This document shows positions 26,237-32,696 of a DNA stretch of 44,651 nt, piece after piece (positions within the stretch are counted from its first letter, which is position 1; every line of letters starts with the position of its first letter). Below the pieces are notes generated by a model. The model worked only from the letters and a program-made list of their open reading frames with translations. It was not told the origin of the DNA and searched no databases. Position numbers and translations under genes: made by a program. Source of the DNA: Acidobacteriota bacterium (GTDB lineage Bacteria; Acidobacteriota; Terriglobia; Terriglobales; Acidobacteriaceae); assembly GCA_023265315.1 (NCBI GenBank), contig JAHFUA010000006.1, positions 1-44,651 of the forward strand, given 5' to 3'.

Positions 26237-26458
26237 TCATGTTGCGGATCGCTTTGAGAACTTACTTCTTAGTGCCATAACACCCTCAATCACAGAAAAG
26301 TAGAAGATCGCGTTGACGAACGCAAACAGGGGATAATTGTCCCCGTTCTCAGGGGTGAGAACGGCCATGGCGATAACACTTGGAAGACCGACAATCGCGC
26401 ACCAAATGCCAACCGTTGAATGCCAGCCGCAACCAAATGTTTCATGAGGGTTGCTCAC
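26237..26458 (-). CDS. Possible small two-helix membrane protein, 73 aa
   Basis: It starts with GTG overlapping the stop of the aldehyde dehydrogenase gene (GTGA) and ends at 26237. Two hydrophobic stretches (about 16-34, IWCAIVGLPSVIAMAVL; about 43-61, LFAFVNAIFYFSVIEGVMAL) predict a hairpin in the membrane, with a basic end (RSKFSKRSAT) that would stay inside. Base composition is visibly lower in GC than the neighbours, so it may be acquired DNA. No ribosome binding site is evident, and coding status rests on the hydrophobic pattern and the stop-start overlap. Function unknown. Confidence 0.45.
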   Translation of the reverse strand: MSNPHETFGCGWHSTVGIWCAIVGLPSVIAMAVLTPENGDNYPLFAFVNAIFYFSVIEGVMALRSKFSKRSAT

Positions 26459-28245
26459 TCGGCGATGGTGAACACGTCGTGCTGCGCGGCCAGATCGCGC
26501 GCTGCGGGGGTGATGATGGTTTTGCTGCCGATCAGGATCTTTTCTTTGCGTTTAAGCGCGACGCGGATCTCCTCCTCGCTCACAAAGTCCACGGGACGCG
26601 GCTTGGGGCGCGAGACCGGAGGCGCCGCGGCTGGCGTTGGTGCTGGCTTTGCGGCAGCCGGAGTGGGCGTTGGAGCAGCAGTAGCCGGCGCGGGCTTGCC
26701 CGTCTTCTTCGCGAGAAAGCGCTCGATGGCGTGGGCGACGGCCACGCGATCCGGGGCGCCGCTGGCAGCAAGCGGAGCACCCTCTTCTTTCTGGCCGGCC
26801 TGGCAAGCGCACGCAGTGGCAGTCGCAGCCGGCGCCGCAACTCCGGTCACGGGCGCGACTTCTTTCTGCGTCACCGGCCGCGCTTCATACGCAACCCGGC
26901 GCAGGTTGATGAGGTGGAGCGGCGAGATATTGTCGGAGGTGATGTTGCCGCCCACGGCGCCGCAGCCCAGCGTCATCGCCGGAAAAAGATTGGTGGAGGC
27001 GCCGATTGATCCCTGCGGCGCCGGGCTGTTCACCACGATCCGCCCGGCCGGCATCTTGAGACCGTACTCGCGGATCACGGCATCGTCGCGGCCGTGGATC
27101 ACGCAGGTGTGTCCCAGGCCGCCAAAGCGCAGCAGCGCCAGGCAAGTGTCGAATCCAGCGCTGCGGTCGCGCGTGAAATAAAGTGCCAGCACGGGCGAGA
27201 GCTTCTCCGCCGAGAGCGGATGCTCGCGTCCCACTCCCTTCAGCAGCGCCACCAGCACGCGCGTGCTATCCGGCACTTTGAATCCCGCCAACTCCGCAAC
27301 ACGCTGAGCCGACTTGCCCACAAACTTGGGATTGATGGTGTGCTGCTCCAGGTTGACCATATCGCGGCCGAGGCGCTGGATCTCGTCTTCGCTGAGGAAG
27401 TGCGCGCCGTTTCGCTTGAGTTCCTCGGTCACCTGGTCGCGGATCGCTTCTTCCGCCACAATCGCCTGCTCCGACGAGCAGATGGTGCCGTTGTCGAAGG
27501 TTTTGCCGAAGACCACGTCGGCCACGGCCTTCTTCACATCGGCGCTGCGGTCGATGAACACGGGCACGTTGCCTGGACCGACACCGAACGCCGGTTTGCC
27601 CGAGCTGTAGGCGGCGCGCACGATCCCCATCCCGCCGGTGGCTAGGATCACGCTGGTGCGGCGGTGCTTCATCAGCTCCTGGGTGCCGGCCAGCGTGGGA
27701 ATCGTGAAGCAGCAGATCACGTCCGAGGGCGATCCCGCTTTGATGGCCGCGTCGCGCATGATGCTGGTGATCTCGCAGGTGCAGCGAAACGCCGTGGGAT
27801 GCGGGCTGAGCACGATGGCGTTCCGTCCCTTAAGCGCGATCAGGATCTTGTAGATGGCAGTGGAAGTGGGATTGGTGGAGGGCAGCACCGCCGCCACCAC
27901 CCCCACCGGAGCCGCCACTTCGATGACGCCCTGCTCGCGGTCCTCGCGCACGATGCCCACGGTCTTCATCCCGCGGAGGGCCTGGTACACGCGCTCGGAG
28001 GAGAACAGGTTCTTCTGCACCTTGTCGGCGACCACGCCGTAGCCGGTCTCCTCGACCGCCAGGCGCGCGATTTTTTCCGCCGCGGCCGTGGCCGCGGCCG
28101 CCATGGCGTCGATGACGCGGTCCACCTGCTCCTGAGTGAAATGCTGGAATTCGAGAAAGGCGTTGTAGGCGCGCTCGATCAGCTCGCGGGCTTCAGCGAC
28201 GGAGCGCGAGTCCTTGTCAGCGGCGGGTTGGACGACAGCAGCCAA
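26455..28245 (-). CDS. CoA-acylating aldehyde dehydrogenase (PduP/EutE/AdhE-N type) with a C-terminal tail
   Basis: Would oxidise a short aldehyde to its acyl-CoA with NAD+ and CoA. The core (about 1-470) has the [19 protein letters not shown] segment, [26 protein letters not shown], and the nucleophile C256 in [11 protein letters not shown]. The end of the core is [21 protein letters not shown]. After an Ala/Pro-rich linker (about 480-549, with a short CACQ cysteine cluster) comes a 47-residue tail containing [15 protein letters not shown] and [11 protein letters not shown]. Linker plus short amphipathic tail is how cargo is often targeted into microcompartments. The BMC-H gene lies directly upstream. 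The substrate aldehyde is unknown, as no signature enzyme is nearby. Confidence 0.88.
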
Positions 28246-28401: not shown

Positions 28402-28710
28402 TTATCCCAGCGCGCCCTTCTTCGCCGGTCCGGCCTTGCCGGTGAGCATGGGCATGGCGGAGTCAAGATCGCCGTGCGGACGCGGAATGACGTGCACGGC
28501 CACCAGCTCGCCGACGCGGCGGGCAGCAGCGGCGCCGGCATCGGTCGCGGCTTTCACCGAGGCCACGTCGCCCCGCACCAGCACCGTGACGTAGCCCGCT
28601 CCGATGTACTCCTTGTGGACCAGCGTGACGTTGGCGGCCTTGACGGCGGCATCGGCCGCCTCGATCGAGCCCACCAGGCCCTTGGTTTCGATCATCCCCA
28701 GCGCTTCCAT
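28402..28710 (-). CDS. Bacterial microcompartment hexameric shell protein (BMC-H)
   Basis: Shell tile of the PduA/EutM/CcmK type. The single BMC domain covers almost the whole 102 residues: [20 protein letters not shown], then [19 protein letters not shown], then [14 protein letters not shown]. The pore loop reads I36-G37-A38-G39, against IGSG in PduA. A short C-terminal tail (about 82-102) ends [13 protein letters not shown] 28710 has GAGG five bases upstream. It is the only shell gene in the window: no BMC-P (EutN/CcmL) or BMC-T gene is seen. It has its own promoter and is followed by the acylating aldehyde dehydrogenase. Confidence 0.95.
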
Positions 28711-28784: not shown

Positions 28785-28798
28785 ACCGGATTGGGCCA

Positions 28799-28876
28799 TG
28801 GAGTCATTGAGTCGTTGAGCCATTAGGACCTGGTTCAATGAAGTCAATGACTCAATGGCTCAATGACTCAATTCTC
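28799..28876. repeat. Family A repeat, copy A2
   Basis: The left part has GGAGTCATTGAGTCGTTGAG. The right part has TCAATGACTCAATGGCTC and ends ATGACTCAATTCTC as in A1. The arms can pair imperfectly. It lies between the divergent BMC-H and DUF507 genes. Confidence 0.85.
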
Positions 28877-28943
28877 CGGCCGGCCACGCTCCTGACGCGT
28901 GTGATATTCTTTTTGTCCAAACGATCCCCGCGGGACGCGCACG

Positions 28944-29222
28944 ATGATCCTTTCCAAAGAATACGTGGCCTACATGGCCCGAGAGGTCACCAAGCAACTG
29001 CTCAAAGGCGAGTTCATCGAGACCACGGACGAGCCGGCGACGCTGCAGCGGGTCCACGCCGCGCTGCTGGAAGAGTTGAGCCTGGAAGACCGCATCAACG
29101 ACGAAGTGCGCGCCATCCTCGAGCAATATTCCGACGAAATGCGCAAGACCGGCGCCAGCTACCAGGAGATGTTCAAGAGGGTGAAGGGCGAACTGGTGCG
29201 CAAGTACAAGGCCGTGCTGTAG
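28944..29222 (+). CDS. DUF507 family protein (first paralogue)
   Basis: A 92-residue, largely helical, charged protein starting MILSKEYVAYMAREVTKQLL. The centre has EELSLEDRINDEVRAILEQY, and the end MFKRVKGELVRKYKAVL. The family has no assigned function and often occurs as two adjacent genes. A second, longer member lies at 31819-32130, with the pattern E-x-R-I-D/N-D-x-V/A shared in the middle. No signal peptide or metal motif is present. The gene is bracketed by repeats A2 and A3, the latter beginning at the stop codon. It is divergent from the BMC gene and convergent with the amidase gene. Confidence 0.85.
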   Translation: MILSKEYVAYMAREVTKQLLKGEFIETTDEPATLQRVHAALLEELSLEDRINDEVRAILEQYSDEMRKTGASYQEMFKRVKGELVRKYKAVL

Positions 29223-29223
29223 A

Positions 29224-29332
29224 TTGAGTCATTGACTCATTGATTCATTGAACCATTGGGCTGAGGCTCGAGTGCCCGTTAATGATCCAGTGAATCAATG
29301 AGTCAATGAGTCAATGGCTCAATGATTCAATT
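29224..29332. repeat. Family A repeat, copy A3 with clear 8-bp periodicity
   Basis: The right part repeats TCAATGAG, TCAATGAG, TCAATGGC, TCAATGAT, TCAATT in exact 8-bp steps (29295-29332). The left part is the approximate inverse (GATTGAGTCATTGACTCATT). The stop codon of the convergent amidase gene lies in the last unit, and the DUF507 stop immediately precedes the left part. Confidence 0.9.
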
Positions 29333-31597
29333 CCCCTGCTGCCCGCCCAGGCTGGCGACCACCTTGCCGCGCCGGGCGGCCACGAGGTAGCGGGCGATGC
29401 CGTGGTAGAGCGCGTCCGCGACTGCCTCCTGCCCTTCCGCCGTACTCAATTTGTGCTCGTCGGCGGGACTGGTGACGAATGCCACCTCGGCCAGGATAGA
29501 AGGCATATCGGCGTCGAGCAGCACCACGAACGGCGCCTGTTTCACGCCGCGATTTAGTACGCCCTTTTCGCCGCCGAAAGCGCGGTAGAGCTCCTGCTGC
29601 ACCTGCACGGCGAGCTTGTGGGATTCGCTGAGCTTCTGGTCCTCGGCCACCGGCTTCAGGACCCCGGTCTTGGCAGGGCTCTCACGCCCCGAAAAGGAGA
29701 CCTTGACCGGGGAAGGACTACTGGCCACGTAGTAGGTCTCGACCCCACGCGCGCCTGGGTCGTCGCTCGAGTTGGCATGGATGGAGATGAGAAGGTCAGC
29801 GCCGGCCTGGTTGGCAATCTCCGCCCGGGCCTCGAGCGGAACGGTGAGATCGCTGGTGCGCGTGTAGACCACTTCTGCGCCCAGGTGGCTGGCCAGCAGG
29901 CCGCCCAGCCGCTTCGCGATCTCCAAGGTCAGGTCTTTTTCTTTCAGGCCGCTGTGACCGATGGCGCCGTCCTCGGTGCCGCCGTGGCCGGGATCAATGA
30001 CAACCTTGGGGCGGCGGGTGAGGGCGGCGTGCGCTGCGGGCGGGCGTATCTCCGCGCTCGGAACTTTCTTCGGTGGCGCCGCTTTCGGAGTCGCGGGGGG
30101 GCGGTTTGGTGCCTGCGTGCCGCGGATCACGATCATCAGCCGGTAGGGCTCGGCGGAGGAGAGCACGGCGGAGTATTCGGCGGGCGTGGCCAGGTCGATT
30201 ACGATGCGCACCGCGGCGGCCTCGCGCATACCGACGCGGACGCGGTTCACCAGCCCATCGTTCACCGGGATGGCGAGGCCTTCGCGCGATTTCCCCAGCA
30301 TGTCCCCCGCCAGTTGCGTGTTCTCCAGGTCAAAGTAGATGCGCTCGGGACTCTTCAGCCTTCCCGCCTCCCACCGCGCTGGAGCTTCCAGGAAAAGGGC
30401 GATGGTGGTGCCCTCCGGCTTCGACCAGGAGCGGATGGCCAGCAGTTGCGAGGGACCGGCGGCGGGCGCGGGACCCGATGCGACCTCGGGAGCGGCGCTG
30501 GCGGCCGGCTCTGCACTGGGCGCCGGGATGGGCGGCTCCGGCGCTGGAGTCACGCCAGGGACGGGCGTCGCGGTGCGTGGGGCAACCACCGCAGGTCTGA
30601 GATGATGGAGCAGCTGGCGGACGTGCGACCCGCGCCACACGACCGCCTCGGTGCCGCCGACCAGCACTGCGATGGCGGCGGCGATGATGGCCAGCGTCCG
30701 CCCCAGCCGGCGGGGTTCAGCGCCTCCGATCACGGCAAAAGCCGGCGCCGGCCAATCGGCTACGATCGCCGCCGGCGTCTCGACCCAAGCGGGGATTTCT
30801 GCGGTCTCCGGCAGCGGAACGGCCGGTTCGGGCAGAACTGGTACGGCAGCCGCTTCCGGAATCTCGCCCAGGTCAACGGAGAAAGCCTCGACCGCCGGCG
30901 CAGGGACTTCCAACCTCTCGACAGGCTCGGGAGCGAGTGCCGGCCGCTGGTGGACTTCGTGCGACCACAACGCCTCGATGACCAGTCCGGCCAGCAGCTT
31001 GAGGGCGCGGATGTCGCGCTCGCCGAACACTCCCGCCCATCCGGAAAAGACCACGATGATGCCGAGCACGTCCTGCTGGCGGCGCAAGGGCACGACCAGG
31101 ATGGAGCGAATGCCCAGGTTGCGGCACACCCAGAGGTCCACGCGCCGGTCGTGTTCGGTATCGTCGCAGAGCTGGACCTCGCCGCTGCTCAGACACTCGC
31201 CGCAAACCACGGATTGCGGATTCACATACGCGCCCAAGTCCGGCGCAATCAGCCCGGACCGCCCGCGGCAGACGACATTCTGGCCCTCGCGCAGGGCGAT
31301 GGCGGCGGCGCCGGCTGCGGTGAGGCGGCGCGCCCCGTCGGCGATGAACTGCAGCGATTGCTCCAGGTTGAGGTGTGCGGCCGCGATCCGGCTCTGGGCA
31401 GCCAGCACCGCCGACAAGGTATCGGAGTCCTTACGCAGCTCTTCCGCTGCTTCCCGGTGGGTCTTCTGCGCCTGCAGATAGGCGAAGGCGAGCAACCGCT
31501 GGATGGGATCCGATTCGGTGGCGTATGGTCTGGGAAGCTCGGGCAAACCACCACGCCAGCCCGACACCCCCAATTCAGGAGTGGACCTGTGTCTCAT
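29327..31597 (-). CDS. N-acetylmuramoyl-L-alanine amidase with GAF, transmembrane and AMIN domains
   Basis: Cleaves the bond between MurNAc and the stem peptide of murein. From ATG 31597 (756 aa; ATG 31633 or an even longer frame is possible, with no clear ribosome site at any) it has a helix-rich start and a GAF domain (about 75-210, with IRSILVVPLRRQQDVLGIIV). A Pro/Ala linker and one transmembrane helix follow (about 298-318, LAIIAAAIAVLVGG). An AMIN domain (about 380-495) precedes Amidase_3 (about 527-750). The zinc ligands and catalytic residue fit: His in VVIDPGHGG, Glu in LKEKDLTLE, His in LISIHANS, Glu in ILAEVAFV. Topology predicts GAF inside and amidase outside. AMIN-amidase (AmiC-like) is common; the fused GAF is not. 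Confidence 0.9.
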   Translation of the reverse strand: MRHRSTPELGVSGWRGGLPELPRPYATESDPIQRLLAFAYLQAQKTHREAAEELRKDSDTLSAVLAAQSRIAAAHLNLEQSLQFIADGARRLTAAGAAAIALREGQNVVCRGRSGLIAPDLGAYVNPQSVVCGECLSSGEVQLCDDTEHDRRVDLWVCRNLGIRSILVVPLRRQQDVLGIIVVFSGWAGVFGERDIRALKLLAGLVIEALWSHEVHQRPALAPEPVERLEVPAPAVEAFSVDLGEIPEAAAVPVLPEPAVPLPETAEIPAWVETPAAIVADWPAPAFAVIGGAEPRRLGRTLAIIAAAIAVLVGGTEAVVWRGSHVRQLLHHLRPAVVAPRTATPVPGVTPAPEPPIPAPSAEPAASAAPEVASGPAPAAGPSQLLAIRSWSKPEGTTIALFLEAPARWEAGRLKSPERIYFDLENTQLAGDMLGKSREGLAIPVNDGLVNRVRVGMREAAAVRIVIDLATPAEYSAVLSSAEPYRLMIVIRGTQAPNRPPATPKAAPPKKVPSAEIRPPAAHAALTRRPKVVIDPGHGGTEDGAIGHSGLKEKDLTLEIAKRLGGLLASHLGAEVVYTRTSDLTVPLEARAEIANQAGADLLISIHANSSDDPGARGVETYYVASSPSPVKVSFSGRESPAKTGVLKPVAEDQKLSESHKLAVQVQQELYRAFGGEKGVLNRGVKQAPFVVLLDADMPSILAEVAFVTSPADEHKLSTAEGQEAVADALYHGIARYLVAARRGKVVASLGGQQGN

Positions 31598-31818
31598 GAG
31601 TGTGAAGCTGTCTATTCTTATCCTGATTGGCATCTGAGTGAAAGGGCCAAGTGGGCCAGGGGAGCACCGCGAGAGTACTATCTTCGGATTGGCACCTTTG
31701 GGCGAGCACCATTCCGGGACGAGCACTCCCTCCCGCGAACCGCGCGCCGGCTGGGGATCCGGCAGCACCCGGCGACAGGAAAACGCCGTATCGGGCGTGC
31801 TATCATCGACATCCGTAC

Positions 31819-32130
31819 ATGGTGAGACTGCCGGAGATCGAGCGCCCCTCGGGCCTGCGGCTCAGCCGCGACAAGCTCAACAAGCTGGCGCACAGCGTCA
31901 CCGACGCGCTGGCCGCGCTGGACGTGGTGGAGTTCATCGAGGACCGCAACACCATCCGCCTGGAGGTGCGCCGCATCCTGGAAGAAGTGCTCAAGGAAGA
32001 GGCCCGGATCGACGCTGCCGCCCGCCAAAAGATCGAGAGCCAGAAGCGCACCATCCTGGAAGGCACCCAGGAATGGGACATCCTCTACCGCAAGTACTAC
32101 AACGAGGGGGTCAAGAAGCTGGGCATTTAG
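31819..32130 (+). CDS. DUF507 family protein (second paralogue)
   Basis: 103 residues from ATG 31819: MVRLPEIERPSGLRLSRDKL opens it, then DVVEFIEDRNTIRLEVRRIL, and EARIDAAARQKIESQKRTIL, ending YYNEGVKKLGI. It is helical and charged, longer than the first paralogue and not interchangeable with it. A TGCTATCAT (31798-31806; extended -10) lies only 12 bases before the ATG, so the transcript may be nearly leaderless; no ribosome site is seen. The frame extends upstream to 31651, but that part is not family sequence. Function unknown. Confidence 0.85.
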   Translation: MVRLPEIERPSGLRLSRDKLNKLAHSVTDALAALDVVEFIEDRNTIRLEVRRILEEVLKEEARIDAAARQKIESQKRTILEGTQEWDILYRKYYNEGVKKLGI

Positions 32131-32246: not shown

Positions 32247-32696
32247 ATGCTGGCTGCGCAACGGCTGGTGCGCCTGATCGAGACCCACTCCGATGGCCTG
32301 GCAGCGTCTCTGCTGGAGAGGACCAGGCAATCGGAGAAGACCAGGAACTACATCGACAAAGTTCCACCCGAGGACCTGCGGCAGCGGGTCCACGAGATCT
32401 ACCACTACCTGGGAGAGTGGTTGATCACCAAGAAGGAAGCCGACGTCGAGCAGCGCTACCTGGAGATCGGCGCCCTGCGCTGCCGCCAGGGTGTCCTGCT
32501 CAGCCAGCTCATCTGGGCCATCCTGCTGGTGAAGGACAATCTGTTCGAATTCCTCAACCGCGAGGCTGTCATCGAACGACCCAGCGAGGTCTTCGGCGAA
32601 CTGGAGATCCTGCAACTGCTGGATCAGTTCTTCGAGCAGGCGGTGTATTACGCGGCGGTCGGCTACGAGCGCTCCCGCAGCCAGGTGGCGGCCTGA
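32247..32696 (+). CDS. All-helical single-domain protein resembling the RsbRD N-terminal (RsbT co-antagonist) domain
   Basis: 149 residues with a good GAGGGAGG ribosome site six bases before ATG 32247. The segment YLEIGALRCRQGVLLSQLIW, followed by AILLVKDNLFEFL, matches the pattern of the RsbRD_N-type helical domain, which in other proteins sits in front of STAS domains or histidine kinases. Here there is no output domain. It could be a stand-alone sensor or a partner of a protein encoded elsewhere. The family assignment is from memory of the pattern and moderately sure. queG starts 13 bases downstream. Confidence 0.6.
   Translation: MLAAQRLVRLIETHSDGLAASLLERTRQSEKTRNYIDKVPPEDLRQRVHEIYHYLGEWLITKKEADVEQRYLEIGALRCRQGVLLSQLIWAILLVKDNLFEFLNREAVIERPSEVFGELEILQLLDQFFEQAVYYAAVGYERSRSQVAA

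Follow-up and report, generated by a model that had tools for sequence, protein, structure and literature searches.

Wall amidases are dangerous enzymes, normally kept off by a blocking helix of their own and freed by LytM activators. In the window studied here, the whole stretch of 44,651 nucleotides of an Acidobacteriota contig, one gene encodes an amidase in a single chain with a GAF domain, and an earlier note had proposed that the two are hard-wired to each other across the membrane. The gene raises the question of whether the GAF domain is a genuine part of the protein and, if it is, how it could bear on an enzyme that would lie on the other side of the membrane.

Domain order and conservation of the fused protein

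The gene is an 813-codon open frame on the minus strand (29327-31768) starting with GTG, from which the residues are numbered here. ATG codons at Met46 and Met58 (the latter at 31597, the start chosen in the earlier note) are both possible alternatives and the true start is not settled; the relatives have only a short N-terminal stretch ahead of a conserved helix. This helix-like motif (residues 90-110, 31439-31501, minus strand) reads IQRLLAFAYLQAQ in the window protein and DALQALLAFSALHQQVR in relatives, and has a mean pairwise identity of 0.57 in 29 proteins. The motif around LLAFAYxxQQ is conserved ahead of the GAF domain in the fused proteins, is found at other places in a few paralogues (L061, L071, L125 and L127), and is possibly a docking helix.

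The domains follow in the order GAF, Pro/Ala-rich linker, hydrophobic helix, second linker, AMIN and Amidase_3, all on the minus strand. The GAF domain (residues 133-264, 30977-31372) matched Pfam GAF_2 with an E value of 5e-17, above the gathering score, and scored 62.8 bits with PF13185 and 49.5 bits with PF01590 (cut-offs 28.6 and 22.4, respectively). Linker 1 covers residues 270-352 (30713-30961), and the single strong hydrophobic segment between GAF and AMIN, with a hydropathy of 2.3, is at residues 359-377 (30638-30694), where a single transmembrane (TM) helix is predicted, as in relatives. Linker 2, also rich in Pro and Ala, spans residues 384-436 (30461-30619) and is followed by the AMIN domain (residues 444-540, 30149-30439; PF11741, E 8e-10, above the gathering score) and the Amidase_3 catalytic domain (residues 589-792, 29393-30004; PF01520, E 4.2e-50, 170.6 bits against a cut-off of 27), which has AmiA (8c2o) and AmiC (4bin) as relatives in the PDB. 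The reading of GAF, TM helix, AMIN and Amidase_3 as one chain was thus confirmed by Pfam matches and the hydrophobic segment within one frame.

The same domain order is kept in 29 further proteins from relatives, giving with the window protein 30 proteins from 14 genera (a count of the genus labels across the 30), throughout within the family of the window genome, and the search of relatives gave many matches spanning GAF and amidase together. The alignment set consisted of the window protein and 28 translated relatives (29 proteins), L138 being read in addition. Mean pairwise identities in the 29 proteins were 0.59 for GAF, 0.61 for AMIN and 0.62 for the amidase, compared to 0.13 and 0.12 for linkers 1 and 2, which vary in length (64-172 and 28-83 residues, respectively). 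The homologues do not begin at the TM helix and, as the GAF domain is about 0.6 identical while the linkers are at about 0.12, it is neither decayed nor separate but has been maintained within the protein. L045 in genome G174, a relative of the fusion, has an in-frame TAG and is either a decayed copy or a sequence error.

The amidase tree groups the GAF-fused proteins in a single clade (82/93), with the window protein on a long branch inside it. The backbone of the GAF tree is poorly resolved, and there the fusion label requires four changes. The fusion is missing from some genomes of the family, and in 149 genomes sampled evenly across the phylum, matches passing an E value of 1e-62 came from the window genome and a single relative only. 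A scan of genome contigs gave one distant amidase only. A description of the architecture was not found in a search of open-licence PMC papers, which is weak evidence of absence; one paper naming both GAF and AMIN domains has, judging by its title, a different topic.

No conserved gene partner or operon was found for the window copy; most of the relatives share one neighbourhood, which the window copy does not. Two DUF507 genes (28944-29222 and 31852-32124, both plus strand), adjoining in 11 of the 12 relatives searched, are split in the window genome by the GAF-amidase gene in opposite orientation. The gene thus occupies a new position in this lineage, in agreement with the missing shared neighbourhood. 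The region 28797-29332 contains, between genes, inverted arrays with a unit of 8 nt, TCAATGAN. The pattern has 13 matches in the window against 0.13 expected and 80 in the genome, compared to 0 for the reversed control, and the stretch 29218-29332 folds into a long hairpin (z -6.95). These arrays are a REP-like family. Genes of an aldehyde dehydrogenase and a BMC shell protein, part of a bacterial microcompartment locus, lie side by side (26455-28245 and 28402-28710, both minus strand), and a protein encoded at 32247-32696 (plus strand) has a weak RsbRD_N match (E 1e-4), slightly below the cut-off.

The GAF cysteines and the membrane-linked GAF family

The five cysteines named in the earlier note, C167, C189, C192, C201 and C215, are all present in the GAF domain. 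Their conservation in the fused proteins extends to four of them, C201 (29/29), C192 (27/29), C215 (20/29) and C167 (16/29), but not to C189, which is private to the window protein. All four are found together in 29 of 42 related GAF domains, a paralogue set from the same genomes which includes L062, actually a fused protein truncated where its contig ends. Three distant plasmid-borne GAF domains, from Paraburkholderia, Paenibacillus and Methylobacterium, have Tyr in place of C167 and keep C192, while C201 is replaced by Ser in two of them and C215 varies. Redox or metal sensing by the cysteines is possible. Single-sequence AlphaFold models, made with no alignment, had mean pLDDT values of 42.0 for the GAF domain alone and 40.5 for the full protein and were unusable.

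In related genomes the same GAF subfamily is joined via a single TM helix to TonB_C, to Sel1 or to AMIN alone, and some GAF paralogues are tail-anchored, with the TM helix at the very C-terminus. Members with the GAF-linker-TM layout and TonB_C, Sel1 or AMIN as output are found among L061, L064-L068, L073, L074 and L109-L127. Based on sequence comparison, the GAF domain is a member of a family which has multiple paralogues and up to four conserved cysteines, and in which the amidase is one among several predicted outputs. That TonB_C, Sel1 and AMIN all occur with this GAF points to an input from the cytoplasm which would be common to several functions of the envelope. It is conceivable, although we consider it doubtful, that this lineage-specific family relays one cytoplasmic cue (redox or metal) through the inner membrane to several envelope effectors, including a LytM-independent amidase.

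Amidase regulation and the possible role of the GAF domain

The Zn ligands and the catalytic Glu of the amidase, H595, E610, H664 and E761, are invariant in 29/29 fused proteins. In enzymes of the AmiA type a blocking helix keeps the enzyme inactive by coordinating the Zn through Glu167, and binding of a LytM domain to the adjacent interaction helix sets it free (PMC10268282). At the site of these two helices the window protein has a degenerate insert (residues 682-738, 29555-29725, minus strand), and some of the fused proteins, e.g. L138 and L051, have short inserts. When aligned with AmiA and AmiC, the latch column was Glu in 27/27 TPR-AMIN amidases of related genomes compared to 9/29 in the GAF class, and the hydrophobic positions of the interaction helix, conserved in the TPR-AMIN type, were lost in the GAF class. 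The aligned column weakened the outcome of a first motif count, according to which the REN motif was missing from the whole GAF class.

The AmiA-type regulatory module thus appears degenerate in the GAF-fused class, a statement which fits the class more than the window copy. With both the latch Glu and the interaction helix degenerate, the fused amidases are probably not gated by activators of the EnvC/NlpD type. The window protein has a Glu (GRES) at the latch column, in an insert within which the alignment is loose, and some residual autoinhibition may therefore remain in it. The window genome has one M23/LytM-type gene. Its three Amidase_3 genes are that of the GAF fusion, one on contig C66 for a TPR-like/AMIN/amidase protein and one on C109 for a protein of 502 aa.

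The best explanation, which we put forward tentatively and at somewhat less than even chances, is a membrane-anchored amidase that is placed or clustered via its cytoplasmic GAF domain. The peptidoglycan amidase would be anchored in the inner membrane, N-in and C-out, with AMIN binding the cell wall and an Amidase_3 domain that, judged by its residues, would be catalytically complete. Tethering and placement, and not activators of the EnvC/NlpD type, would probably keep the enzyme in check. The GAF domain would most likely act by dimerising or by docking onto a partner in the cytoplasm. A ligand, a metal or thiol oxidation at the conserved cysteines may be what switches it, and its state would set the location and density of the amidase in the membrane. 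The topology, the activity, the dimerisation or docking of the GAF domain and any ligand are what we infer from the protein and its relatives. A class of amidases without the catch, tied to the inner membrane and carrying a conserved cytoplasmic domain of sensor type, would represent a different way of limiting wall cutting.

GAF domains often dimerise, and the domain could be a constitutive dimerisation or anchoring module which holds the amidase as an inner-membrane dimer and senses nothing. The cysteines are indeed not strict, the position of C167 being Leu in 13/29 and C215 missing in 9/29 of the fused proteins. However, the TM helix alone would suffice as an anchor, and the conservation of C201 and C192, together with the set of four in most related GAF domains, goes beyond the needs of a scaffold, so that we regard a purely structural role as rather unlikely.

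Transmembrane allostery, the view of the earlier note, in which the GAF domain, on a ligand or redox change, would shift the TM helix and turn the amidase on or off, seems improbable. A conserved GAF domain of sensor type and an enzyme on opposite sides of a TM helix in one chain agree with it. On the other hand, the GAF-TM linker consists of 64-172 and the TM-AMIN linker of 28-83 Pro/Ala-rich, variable and hardly conserved residues, and there is no HAMP domain or coiled coil to transmit motion. As linkers so long and variable make a rigid lever unlikely, the coupling cannot be called hard-wired. The same anatomy could also serve signalling in the opposite direction, with the GAF domain relaying to a cytoplasmic partner what AMIN and the amidase sense of the wall; a GAF-TM-AMIN relative without the amidase (L061) exists. 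Fully conserved catalytic residues would be superfluous in a pure receptor and no conserved cytoplasmic partner gene was found, and such a role is therefore very unlikely.

Placement of the amidase via the GAF domain depends on a cytoplasmic GAF domain and on AMIN and the amidase lying outside. This is a reasonable reading because no signal peptide precedes the GAF domain and because AMIN and amidase domains act on the wall. The charges flanking the TM helix do not confirm it: the positive-inside rule is not followed in the fused class, with a mean of 1.7 K/R before and 2.3 after the helix (15-residue flanks, in a count including L007, which was picked wrongly). In the GAF-TM paralogues the flanking charges mostly fit the rule. 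The topology claimed in the earlier note is thus backed by the domain types and by the fact that no signal peptide is present, and left unconfirmed by the charges, which do not favour an outside C-terminus and would allow an unexported amidase half acting as a regulator in the cytoplasm. There is a precedent in the Amidase_3 homologue CwlM, named as a regulator of peptidoglycan synthesis in the title of PMC12797351. With AMIN as a wall-binding domain, intact catalytic residues and a lone TM helix behind a cytoplasmic N-terminal domain, which puts the C-terminus outside, we give a cytoplasmic regulator hardly any chance. Chance readthrough of a GAF gene that is decayed or separate, for which the uncertain start codon and nothing beyond it speaks, is practically ruled out by the alignment and by the architecture and GAF identity shared with 29 relatives.

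Comparison with known amidases and GAF enzymes

The catalytic fold, the Zn ligands and the catalytic Glu are shared with E. coli AmiA, AmiB and AmiC (8c2o, 4bin), and the combination of AMIN with Amidase_3 is found also in AmiB and AmiC. About 350 residues, including the GAF domain, are ahead of the only strong hydrophobic helix and, unlike the secreted soluble AmiA, AmiB and AmiC, the window protein is not secreted and has an N-terminal GAF domain, a linker and an internal TM helix. The regulatory domain of the GAF class is degenerate and lacks the hydrophobic LytM-interaction helix of these division amidases. The NCBIfam equivalog scores for AmiA, AmiB and AmiC, 134, 121 and 91 bits, respectively, were below the cut-offs of 700, 400 and 532. 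The term AmiC-like is therefore apt for the catalytic domain, which resembles those of AmiA, AmiB and AmiC, and not for the whole protein, which is no secreted AmiC.

The TPR-AMIN-Amidase_3 paralogue, of which the window genome has its own copy (contig C66, L001), is 36-51% identical in AMIN and amidase, but differs at the N-terminus, where it has a signal-like segment and a TPR-like region, and in its AmiA-type regulatory motif, which is complete (REN together with the interaction helix). The minimal Amidase_3 enzymes without a regulatory insert (5emi and CwlV, 1jwq) share the catalytic core, whereas their solved constructs are without GAF, TM helix or AMIN.

The free Met-R-sulfoxide reductase has a GAF fold with catalytic cysteines in the pocket region. 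The GAF domain described here gave a weak profile match with this enzyme (yebR, 1vhm; E 5e-4) and differs from it in being part of a fused membrane protein. The GAF-TM proteins with TonB_C, Sel1 or AMIN share with the window protein the GAF subfamily, the conserved cysteines, the linker and the single TM helix, whereas their outputs beyond the helix are others, and some of the GAF-TM paralogues carry an N-terminal PilZ domain or zinc ribbons.
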